From a virus: a stretch of DNA of 21,030 bases. The stretch is taken from the IMG/VR virus record IMGVR_UViG_3300025652_000688, positions 1 to 21,030 of that record. The stretch is one strand, 5' to 3'. Shown piece after piece: positions 10,452 to 13,352 of the stretch; the stretch's first letter is position 1, and every line of letters begins with the position of its first letter. The translations under genes and the position numbers were made by a program. The notes under the pieces were generated by a model. It ran no database searches. It was not told where the DNA came from and was given only the letters and a program-made list of their open reading frames with translations.

Positions 10452-10480
10452 ATTATACTACACTGAAACATCATAGTCAA
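10452..10480 (-). promoter_or_regulatory. Sigma-70-type promoter for the membrane protein/metallopeptidase pair
   Basis: TTGACT (10480-10475), 17 bp, TATAAT (10457-10452), preceded by GTAG. Confidence 0.85.
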
Positions 10481-10514
10481 GTACTTTCGAAGCTATTTTA
10501 GAACAAATCAACTT

Positions 10515-10574
10515 CACTTGACATCTCTCTCAATACCCACGTATTATCTCATAGTACTGTAGTGATGTCAAGTG
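10515..10574. promoter_or_regulatory. Face-to-face promoters framed by an 11-bp inverted repeat
   Basis: CACTTGACATC (10515-10525) and its perfect inverse GATGTCAAGTG (10564-10574) flank 38 bp. The minus strand reads TTGACA (10571-10566), 17 bp, GATAAT (10548-10543). The plus strand reads TTGACA (10518-10523), 18 bp, TATTAT (10542-10547). The two -10 boxes overlap, so only one polymerase could bind at a time. The minus promoter would run into the promoter at 10452-10480; the plus one would make RNA antisense to the 104-aa gene. Confidence 0.55.
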
Positions 10575-10584
10575 CTATATTGAT

Positions 10585-10899
10585 TTATTTGACTGCTTCC
10601 ACGAACTCGCCATCGGGCTTCGCCAGTTCCTTCTTCGCTTTGATGGCATTTTTAGCTTCCAACACCTTCTTGGCATCACGATCTGCTCTGGCAATCTTCA
10701 GCGCCTTTACTTCCTTGGCCTTCGTTCTAGCTATCCTAGCATTAGCAGAGTGTCTGATCCGATCATCCTTTGGTGCGATATCCACATTTGGTACGATTTC
10801 AGCGAACTCGATTGTCTCTGGAAGATCTTCTTCAAATCCATCAGCGTCAATTAGTTCATCTATCATTACGTCCAATTCTTCTAAACTCATATCACTCAT
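10585..10899 (-). CDS. Charged helical phage protein, paralog of the 68-aa gene
   Basis: A 104-aa protein in two parts: an acidic N-terminal half (about 1-45, LEELDVMIDELIDADGF) and a basic, Ala/Lys/Arg-rich helix (about 50-95) with ANARIARTKAKEVKALK then IARADRDAKK. The basic part repeats the pattern of the 68-aa protein two genes upstream (IARRARQDVKRI, KLAKEDRED), suggesting an old tandem duplication. Function unknown; DNA or protein scaffolding is possible. AAGGGAG 7 nt before ATG 10899 is an excellent ribosome binding site, lying inside the end of the overlapping upstream gene. Confidence 0.75.
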   Translation of the reverse strand: MSDMSLEELDVMIDELIDADGFEEDLPETIEFAEIVPNVDIAPKDDRIRHSANARIARTKAKEVKALKIARADRDAKKVLEAKNAIKAKKELAKPDGEFVEAVK

Positions 10900-11556: not shown

Positions 11557-11631
11557 TGGTGCCCCCAGAGAGATTCGAACTCCCGTCTAAGCATTACAAG
11601 TGCTTTGCTAAACCAACTCAGCTATAAGGGC
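11557..11631 (-). tRNA. tRNA-Thr (anticodon TGT)
   Basis: A cloverleaf on the minus strand: acceptor GCCCTTA/TGGGGGC with two G-T pairs, D-stem GCTG/TAGC, anticodon stem AAGCA/TGCTT around loop CTTGTAA, T-arm GGGAG-TTCGAAT-CTCTC, discriminator A and an encoded CCA. It reads the codon ACA. Last tRNA of the cluster in transcription order. Confidence 0.93.
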
Positions 11632-11677
11632 ATAAAGATTGTTGCTATACTATATGTATATCATATAGATATAGACT

Positions 11678-11824
11678 CTATGCGTCGTCTATCCAAGCTC
11701 TATCGGCAGAAGGTCCTTTGATCTTAGACTGCTTCTTCCTGTCTACGTGGGTGACAGGTCGATTGAACTTCTCCATGTTCTTTGCTATAAAGTTCTGTTG
11801 CTTGGTCTTTCGTGTAGTGCTCAT
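11678..11824 (-). CDS. Small basic phage protein (48 aa) between tRNA genes
   Basis: From ATG 11824 it encodes 48 aa, MSTTRKTKQQNFIAKNMEKF then NRPVTHVDRKKQSK, a Lys/Arg-rich protein. The pattern NFxAKxxxxFNRPxTHxDRKK recalls short basic proteins (DUF7230-like) widespread in phages and proteobacteria, a tentative link. The frame is open upstream to 11872, but that part lies over the tRNA-Tyr gene. The Shine-Dalgarno is weak (AGG about 10 nt ahead). Confidence 0.6.
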   Translation of the reverse strand: MSTTRKTKQQNFIAKNMEKFNRPVTHVDRKKQSKIKGPSADRAWIDDA

Positions 11825-11841
11825 ACATGTATTGCCTAAAA

Positions 11842-11925
11842 TGGTGGATAGTATTGGAATCGAACCAATCATGAGTTTCCTCGGCGGAGTTACAGTCCAC
11901 TGTCACACCTTGTGACCTACTATCC
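11842..11925 (-). tRNA. tRNA-Tyr (anticodon GTA)
   Basis: A class II cloverleaf: acceptor GGATAGT/ACTATCC, anticodon loop CTGTAAC with stem GTGGA/TCCGC, a long variable arm with GAG-GAAA-CTC, T-arm ATTGG-TTCGATT-CCAAT, discriminator A and encoded CCA. Reads UAC and UAU. Confidence 0.95.
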
Positions 11926-11933
11926 ATAATAAG

Positions 11934-12013
11934 TGCCAGTCAGGGAATCGAACCCTTTCACTCCTGCGATATGACACCTGGATATCTATTGGAGTTAGCA
12001 AACATGCCCTGGC
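11934..12013 (-). other. tRNA-like element without an ordinary anticodon arm
   Basis: It has a good T-arm (AAGGG-TTCGATT-CCCTG, four pairs) and a matching acceptor end (GCCAG 12013-12009 with CTGGC 11939-11935), spaced as in a tRNA. In place of the D and anticodon arms there is one long hairpin: ACTCC/GGAGT (11991-11995 with 11960-11964), an internal loop, GATAT/ATATC (11982-11986 with 11968-11972) and a 9-nt loop. No 7-nt anticodon loop with T33 can be drawn, and the 3' CCA found in the other tRNAs is missing. It may be a decayed tRNA or a tRNA mimic. It starts 5 nt after the tRNA-Leu CCA. Confidence 0.5.
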
Positions 12014-12018
12014 GTAAT

Positions 12019-12103
12019 TGGTGCGGACGGAGAGACTCGAACTCTCACACCTTGCGGCACCAGAACCTAAATCTGGCGTGTATACCAATTTCACCACGTC
12101 CGC
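12019..12103 (-). tRNA. tRNA-Leu (anticodon TAG)
   Basis: A class II cloverleaf: acceptor GCGGACG/CGTCCGC, anticodon stem CCAGA/TCTGG around loop TTTAGGT, a variable arm with GCCGCAAGGTGT, T-arm GAGAG-TTCGAGT-CTCTC, A73 and encoded CCA. Reads CUA, a rare codon in many hosts. Confidence 0.95.
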
Positions 12104-12109
12104 ATAAAG

Positions 12110-12184
12110 TGGCTCGGGTACCAGGAATCGAACCTAGCTATCACAGATTAACAGTCTGCTGCCACACCTTGCGGCCCTACCCGA
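12110..12184 (-). tRNA. tRNA-Asn (anticodon GTT)
   Basis: Acceptor TCGGGTA/TACCCGA, D-arm with GCC...GGC around CGCAAGGTGT, anticodon stem GCAGA/TCTGT with loop CTGTTAA, T-loop TTCGATT, discriminator G as is usual for Asn, and encoded CCA. Reads AAC and AAU. Confidence 0.95.
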
Positions 12185-12230
12185 TCAATAAATCTTAACA
12201 TAGTCTATATAGTGCGCTCAATATCGGTGA

Positions 12231-12500
12231 TTACCAATACTGCGATATCAACGAGCTAATTGAGTTTGGATTCCGCATCACACTCACCGCATCATCTTTT
12301 CCTAAACCAACGTCTAGCTTAGCTAACGACACAGCAACCTCTTCCCTAAGCTCCATAGCATCCACGACGTACTTCTCAACAACATATAGTCTAGTCTGCT
12401 TACGTACTTTCATAGATTCGTACATAGCAATCTGGGACTCGATATCGGCAATATCACTAACTAACAGCTCTTGAAACGACTTAGCTTGTAACATATTCAT
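12231..12500 (-). CDS. Coiled-coil phage protein inside the tRNA cluster (89 aa)
   Basis: An 89-aa, largely helical protein, MNMLQAKSFQELLVSDIAD then IESQIAMYESMKVRKQTRL, with heptad-like Leu/Ile/Val spacing over about residues 8-65 and a short loop-rich end (RNPNSISSLISQYW). It probably forms a small oligomer. Not recognised. AGGA 7 nt before ATG 12500. It lies between tRNA-Arg (25 nt upstream) and tRNA-Asn (46 nt downstream) on the same strand, so it should be on the tRNA transcript. Confidence 0.75.
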   Translation of the reverse strand: MNMLQAKSFQELLVSDIADIESQIAMYESMKVRKQTRLYVVEKYVVDAMELREEVAVSLAKLDVGLGKDDAVSVMRNPNSISSLISQYW

Positions 12501-12525
12501 GGTATTATCCTAACACATCATTAAT

Positions 12526-12602
12526 TGGTGCGCCCAGCAGGACTCGAACCTGCAACCACTCCCTTAGAAGGGGAGTGCTCTATCCATTTGAGCCATGGGC
12601 AC
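12526..12602 (-). tRNA. tRNA-Arg (anticodon TCT)
   Basis: Acceptor GTGCCCA/TGGGCGC with a G-T pair, D-arm GCTC...GAGC, anticodon stem CTCCC/GGGAG with loop CTTCTAA, T-arm GCAGG-TTCGAGT-CCTGC, A73 and encoded CCA. Reads AGA, rare in many Gram-negative hosts. Confidence 0.95.
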
Positions 12603-12866
12603 ATAAAGTGGCAGTACGTTGCCAGCGGGATCTTTGACCTTTCAGTCCCCCACCGTACGGGGTTGTAGCTGCTCATGTCCCCTCCCATCTGAGCAAATGG
12701 TTACAAGAGGTGCCTTACAAAATTCTGTAAGATTTTAAGAGAATCGTCTCTAAGACATAACTACGTTTACTGTGAAGTCGGCCAGGAATGCCCAACCCAT
12801 TACACAGTGAACAACACTCTCAGCAGTAATTGAAAATGCTGTTCACTACACTCTCTTCTATAAATT
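12603..12866 (-). ncRNA. Structured non-coding spacer in the tRNA cluster
   Basis: The 264 nt between tRNA-Ile2 and tRNA-Arg hold no credible gene but many short stems: TGGCA/TGCCA (12609-12613, 12620-12624), CCCC/GGGG (12648-12651, 12659-12662), TGCTCA/TGAGCA (12670-12675, 12690-12695), CTTACA/TGTAAG (12714-12719, 12726-12731) and AGAGA/TCTCT (12738-12742, 12747-12751). Larger pairings compete: 12803-12812 can pair with 12765-12774 (10 bp, one G-T) or, through 12806-12813, with 12840-12847 (8 bp). The upper-left part faintly resembles a decayed tRNA. Function unknown; it would be transcribed with the flanking tRNAs. Confidence 0.4.
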
Positions 12867-12943
12867 TGGTGGGCCTTCCCGGACTCGAACCGGGGACCTG
12901 ACGATTATGAGTCGTATGCTCTAACCAACTGAGCTAAAGGCCC
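12867..12943 (-). tRNA. tRNA-Ile2 (anticodon CAT), less likely elongator Met
   Basis: Acceptor GGGCCTT, D-arm GCTC...GAGC, anticodon stem ACGAC-loop-ATCGT region with CTCATAA, T-arm CCCGG-TTCGAGT-CCGGG, A73 and encoded CCA. C4 and C5 in the acceptor stem and the CGACTCATAATCG anticodon region match E. coli tRNA-Ile2, whose C34 is changed to lysidine by TilS so that it reads AUA. E. coli elongator tRNA-Met differs at these positions. Identity is inferred; the tRNA itself is clear. First tRNA of the cluster. Confidence 0.9.
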
Positions 12944-12954
12944 AAATCTCTACA

Positions 12955-13293
12955 CTAGGCTCCAGTCCAGTATACTGAGTACTCACTGTTGTCGAGTATG
13001 TTAGCTCGACCGAAGTTTCGAGCAGGACTAGCCCAGCTGTTGGCTTTGAGCAGAGTTCCCTGCTTGAAGGTCTTGTCAGTATCGCCCTTCACTACAAAGC
13101 CCCAAGCGGCACGGTTAGATAAGATTTTTATGTACTTACTACCCTCGGCAACTTCTAGTCCGGCTTCAAATTTAGCAAGCATTTCTAAACGATGTGGAGG
13201 CATCTCGTCACCTTCATAAGGCATGTTAAACAATGATGCTTTATAGTCAGTCTTAATCTTCTCTAACAGAGTAGCAATCGCAGTCTTCATCAT
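12955..13293 (-). CDS. Conserved-looking phage protein with KYIKI and SWASPARNFGRANI motifs
   Basis: A 112-114-aa protein of unknown function. The C-terminal half, GSKYIKI...GFVV...FKQGTLLKANSW then ASPARNFGRANILDN and YSVYWTGA, is a pattern I remember from small proteins conserved across many phages; the N-terminal half is a helical segment. No catalytic motif is evident. The start is ATGATTATGATG; ATG 13293 is best spaced from GAGA, with 13299 and 13290 also possible. Its stop is 12 nt before tRNA-Ile2, so it may share the tRNA transcript. Confidence 0.72.
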   Translation of the reverse strand: MMKTAIATLLEKIKTDYKASLFNMPYEGDEMPPHRLEMLAKFEAGLEVAEGSKYIKILSNRAAWGFVVKGDTDKTFKQGTLLKANSWASPARNFGRANILDNSEYSVYWTGA

Positions 13294-13323
13294 AATCATT
13301 GTCTCTCATCAGTTTATGTATCC

Positions 13324-13352
13324 ATTATACTATAACATTACTAGGTTGTCAA
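13324..13352 (-). promoter_or_regulatory. Sigma-70-type promoter upstream of the tRNA cluster
   Basis: TTGACA (13352-13347), 17 bp, TATAAT (13329-13324), preceded by ATAG. It drives the 112-aa gene and probably the tRNA cluster, since no terminator is seen between them. Confidence 0.9.

Follow-up and report, generated by a model that had tools for sequence, protein, structure and literature searches.

A non-coding spacer with two strong 5' hairpins in a phage tRNA cluster is a candidate small RNA

What is a 264-nt stretch without a convincing gene doing between two tRNA genes of an uncultured T4-type phage? The question is raised by the viral contig IMG/VR record IMGVR_UViG_3300025652_000688, whose entire 21,030 bp are referred to here as the window. 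ARAGORN identified six tRNA genes in the window, all on the minus strand (11557-12943), and the 264-nt gap fits exactly between two of them (Table 1). A first-pass annotation had described this spacer as densely structured, with switch-like, mutually exclusive pairings, and had proposed either a functional RNA or the remains of several tRNAs. The spacer contains no ORF of 50 aa or more, save one running into tRNA-Arg, and an Rfam scan at gathering and permissive cutoffs matched the spacer to no family. As to tRNA remains, a permissive cmscan of positions 12560-12900 with the tRNA covariance model returned nothing but the flanking tRNA-Arg, truncated at the edge of the scanned stretch; no tRNA scored inside the spacer. 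A 114-aa ORF leads into the tRNA cluster and is itself preceded by a perfect promoter match, and because of this upstream match co-transcription of the spacer with the tRNAs is likely. A 6-nt leader, CTTTAT, directly precedes tRNA-Arg, tRNA-Leu and tRNA-Thr of the cluster and is possibly a processing signal.

Table 1. Positions of the features discussed in the text; L numbers denote related contigs.
Feature	Contig	Position	Strand	Remarks
Spacer, candidate small RNA	window	12603-12866	minus	non-coding, 264 nt, bounded by two ARAGORN tRNAs
Hairpin 1	window	12806-12848	minus	up to 17-18 bp, 8-nt loop; inner pairs p 0.97-1.0
Hairpin 2	window	12769-12808	minus	directly adjoins hairpin 1; basal pairs p 0.68-0.93
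Direct repeat copy 1, GAGAGTGT	window	12848-12855	minus	seen in sequence
Direct repeat copy 2, GAGAGTGT	window	12814-12821	minus	3' arm of hairpin 1
3' part of spacer	window	12603-12764	minus	weakly structured; TGCCA-CTTTAT end before tRNA-Arg
Upstream tRNA, anticodon CAT	window	12867-12943	minus	ARAGORN Met; allelic to tRNA-Ile GAT in L001
Downstream tRNA-Arg(TCT)	window	12526-12602	minus	ARAGORN
114-aa ORF upstream of tRNA cluster	window	12955-13299	minus	conserved in relatives
Sigma-70-like promoter match	window	13324-13352	minus	perfect TTGACA-17-TATAAT; likely transcription-unit start
Differing tRNA slots	window	12867-12943, 12110-12184, 11557-11631		
Differing tRNA slots	L001	6925-7001, 8236-8311		
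Differing tRNA slots	L021	622-698		
175-nt RNA	L008	9152-9326		
175-nt RNA	L002	9150-9329		
175-nt RNA	L111	3540-3710	minus	
175-nt RNA	L142	11704-11875	minus	

The spacer as a whole folded better than its dinucleotide shuffles (z = -3.61, 0 of 200 shuffles equally good; z = -3.30 and 1 of 200 in a second run). Across both strands of the window, no 46-nt fold is more stable than hairpin 1 (-23.7 kcal/mol), and none of 100 spacer shuffles reached its stability. For hairpin 2, the 44-nt stretch 12765-12808 gave z = -3.1 (2 of 200 shuffles). When hairpin 1 was left out, the remaining spacer gave z = -0.55, with 63 of 200 shuffles folding equally well; the 3' 162 nt gave z = -1.34 (18 of 200), and the last 56 nt about -0.4. 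The folding signal is thus confined to the two 5' hairpins, approximately one third of the spacer, while the remaining ~160 nt are shuffle-like. The claim of a structured spacer therefore holds for these two hairpins, whereas the high density of stems, with five further small hairpins, was not borne out. Of 158 overlapping 264-nt windows taken from this strand, 7 reached z ≤ -2.8, two of them overlapping the spacer, so the whole-spacer z is by itself unremarkable; it is the local hairpin 1 that is unique. The lowest z among these windows was -4.27, at 10471-10734 (minus), a segment that is partly intergenic and partly takes in the 3' end of a 104-aa ORF.

We then looked for homologues of the spacer. 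About 100 distinct related contigs were gathered via the neighbouring proteins, NrdB and a lipase-like protein. NrdB is the small subunit of ribonucleotide reductase, and the copy in the window shares 82.6% identity with its counterpart in Phage C48C1 and 67% with the one in Methylophilales phage Melnitz. Both phages are listed in Kyanoviridae, and Phage C48C1 and Methylophilales phages are the closest named relatives. Among the related contigs the spacer was present only in two near-identical ones: L001 (IMGVR_UViG_3300025806_000625; 264 of 264 positions identical) and L021 (IMGVR_UViG_3300010368_000263; 205 of 206, the contig starting within the spacer); pairwise identities among these two contigs and the window are all >98%. 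The sole change in L021, CACAGT to CGCAGT in hairpin 2, converts a U-A into a U-G and keeps the pair. Given that these genomes diverge by only about 0.3-0.5% outside tRNA genes, the identity of the spacer says nothing on selection. Blastn of the spacer against phages gave chance matches only. Searches with exact spacer patterns found no diverged homologue in viral contigs, where matches to a covariance model of the hairpins (R2) were the pattern itself or weak, and returned nothing from genome contigs; neither R2 nor a model of the 3' part (R1) found a distant match in about 100 related loci or in T4. Conservation in related phages, on which the first-pass annotation had made its proposal depend, accordingly extends to near-identical genomes only, which partly counts against that proposal, and covariation of the spacer itself is not assessable because no diverged homologue was found. 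Two relatives, L008 and L032, carry small ORFs between the homologue of the 114-aa gene and tRNA-Arg(TCT), and have neither the CAT tRNA nor the spacer.

A different RNA was found in the tRNA clusters of relatives. Just upstream of tRNA-Arg(ACG), a non-coding RNA of ~175 nt is present in L008 (the same in L009/L010), L002 (= L121 contig), L111 and L142. In a four-sequence alignment fitted to a model, compensatory changes occurred at 8 pairs in two helices (columns 62-67/100-105 and 110-116/126-132), a number reached by 0 of 500 shuffles and compared with a maximum of 2 in slid controls; an earlier three-sequence MAFFT alignment had already shown eight compensated pairs in these two helices. 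A further helix is formed by TCTGA/TCAGA in L008 and L142, TCTGG/CCAGA in L111 and TCTAGTATGA/TCATACTAGA in L002. Of the first helix, the 5' arm lies inside it and the 3' arm outside, which would make an H-type pseudoknot topology likely. A pairing between a loop of this RNA and its CACCC segment was also considered and is unsupported in the form considered (40% of cells paired, probably in the wrong register). The 175-nt RNA had no Rfam match, and its model (R3) found no match in the window. It shares with the spacer the phage group and the tRNA-cluster setting, but the two match neither in sequence nor by model, and compensatory changes and pseudoknot evidence belong to the 175-nt RNA only. 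It indicates that genuine structured RNAs do occur in the tRNA clusters of this phage group, and a functional RNA in the spacer thereby becomes more probable a priori, though it is not proved. In a related phage, a 188-nt non-coding spacer lies between tRNA-Ala and tRNA-Asn (L061 5273-5460, L073 12039-12226), with GTCACCA shortly before the next tRNA and z = -1.3 to -1.5.

Phage T4 offers the closest precedent. Its tRNA cluster carries two non-tRNA RNAs, RNAC (species 1) and RNAD (species 2), beside tRNA-Arg; they have been described as late RNAs and examined by Northern blot (PMC9697503), and the small RNAs from the T4 tRNA region are described as lacking a known function (PMC3014915, PMC9697503). 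Like these, the spacer lies inside the tRNA cluster and adjoins tRNA-Arg, and its folding significance is comparable to that of RNAC, for which the same test gave z = -4.6. The likeness does not extend to sequence: models R1 and R2 matched nothing in the T4 locus (L106). A T arm like that of a tRNA (GGGTTCGAATCCC) is part of RNAC, and RNAD finishes with a CACCA-like sequence, whereas the 3' end of the spacer, with its shuffle-like fold, has no T arm and only TGCCA before CTTTAT. GOLLD and ROOL, structured phage and prophage RNAs often found near tRNA islands (PMC12286853), differ by their far greater size and complexity (many GOLLD RNAs are longer than 800 nt), and their Rfam models did not match the spacer. 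By position only, the spacer may thus be regarded as a candidate for the broad group of non-tRNA RNAs in phage tRNA clusters. Elsewhere in the window, positions 11930-12016 (minus) hold a tRNA-like element not called by ARAGORN, with a 5-bp acceptor, a D-like arm and a T arm (GGGTTCGATTCCC) reminiscent of that in T4 RNAC; a ~26-nt stretch replaces the normal anticodon loop and CTT stands in place of CCA. The folding z of this element is only -1.5, and Rfam returned no whole-tRNA match.

The reading we favour, to which we assign a probability of roughly 0.45, is that the spacer is a functional small RNA released from the tRNA operon transcript. The spacer would be transcribed as a non-coding segment of a single such transcript, and its 5' ~86 nt would fold into two adjacent hairpins able to stack on each other. 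Excision of the flanking tRNAs by tRNA maturation enzymes would free it as an RNA of ~260 nt or as a shorter 5' hairpin fragment. The freed RNA would most likely be a phage small RNA, possibly stable and functional, and a positional relative of T4 RNAC and RNAD that shares no sequence with them. This reading is supported by the concentration of the folding significance in hairpins 1 and 2, by the flanking tRNAs and the perfect upstream promoter match, by the lack of an Rfam family and of a convincing ORF in the spacer, and by the precedents of T4 RNAC/RNAD and of the relatives' 175-nt RNA. It is weakened by the lack of a diverged homologue, by the restriction of significant structure to about a third of the spacer, and by the small ORFs that L008 and L032 have upstream of tRNA-Arg(TCT) instead. 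The proposal of a functional RNA in the tRNA cluster is hence plausible from the 5' hairpins, the absence of a convincing gene, the probable co-transcription and the phage precedent. We consider it rather doubtful that the spacer encodes a small phage RNA of a new class which, freed by tRNA processing, would act in infection and would be one of several unrelated RNAs rotating through T4-type tRNA clusters; such rotation is suggested by the relatives' 175-nt RNA. Host RNases, ribosomes or a tRNA-targeting defence are examples of what such an RNA might decoy or regulate. Non-homologous structured RNAs at this kind of location in other T4-type phages would suggest the tRNA operon as a recurrent site of small RNAs, and covarying families of this sort would give comparative material for probing the function of tRNA-cluster RNAs; the spacer taken alone is a candidate only.

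The strongest competing explanation, tentative but well within consideration, is that the hairpins serve the precursor, either by insulating the tRNAs from each other or by giving RNase III or RNase E an entry, and that the excised spacer is degraded. A long stem directly downstream of a tRNA, structure limited to the 5' third and the lack of sequence conservation in relatives are all consistent with such a role. However, the gap between the Asn and Leu tRNAs (12104-12109) consists of 6 bases without a hairpin, so that a hairpin is not needed for processing, and a mere spacer of 264 nt would be a long one. Alternatively, the stretch could be a functionless insertion or remnant, brought in together with the tRNA-CAU gene as foreign or decayed sequence in place of the small ORFs of relatives. 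The arrangement in L008 and L032, together with the apparent exchangeability of tRNA slots in the cluster, fits this explanation, which we nevertheless judge unlikely: the window's strongest hairpin would not be expected in a random remnant, and the permissive scan gave no tRNA remnant.

A conditional attenuator or riboswitch, as put forward in the first-pass annotation, is very improbable. The complementarities underlying it, of a segment 1 with a segment 2 and of segment 2 with a segment 3, are present in the sequence, as are the CAGCA/TGCTG stem and the direct repeat, and a perfect 8-bp stem with a competing 9/10 stem sharing at least 6 bases arose in only 0.4% of 500 shuffles. Yet the two pairings do not exclude each other. 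In the computed ensemble, the core of the segment 1/2 helix (12844-12831 with 12809-12822, p 0.97-1.0) forms together with the outer part of the segment 2/3 helix (12808-12803 with 12769-12774, p 0.68-0.93), while the inner four pairs proposed for the latter have p = 0. The contest is reduced to three bases (12806-12808), that is, to a 3-bp branch migration, and two exclusive helices of comparable stability were not found. Furthermore, terminator-like matches did not exceed chance (one, at 12624-12609, with 1.1 expected), no Rfam riboswitch matched, and the spacer is followed by a tRNA and not by a regulated ORF. With GCATTTTC, copy 1 of the direct repeat could form a weak 8-bp hairpin early on (-7.4 kcal/mol), which hairpin 1 would displace as transcription proceeds; this early hairpin would be a folding intermediate rather than evidence for a regulated switch. 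Least credible of all is a short gene in the 3' part, with its start at an ATG that closely follows GGGAGGGGAC, since despite a good Shine-Dalgarno-like sequence and a 55-aa open frame (12688-12521, through tRNA-Arg), about half of the frame is made up by the tRNA gene, and tblastn with 29 residues around the start found no match in 50,697 phage records.

The comparison of near-identical phages yielded one further observation on the cluster: in genomes that elsewhere match the window at >99% identity, individual tRNA slots hold clearly different alleles. Compared with L001/L022 (blastn), the six tRNA genes show 28 differences, 18 of them in Thr, 10 in the CAT/GAT slot and none in the remaining four, against 35 across the other 12,640 bp; compared with L021, all 29 are located in the Asn gene, with 54 across the other 11,140 bp. 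The differences end at or near the tRNA boundaries. The anticodon is unchanged in the Asn and Thr slots, while the Ile-like slot reads CAT or GAT. One reading is that tRNA alleles may be exchanged, perhaps driven by tRNA-targeting defences, as has been argued for other phages (PMC10264068). Another is mosaic assembly, beside which we set the observation that the acceptor stem of the L001 Ile allele is imperfect.
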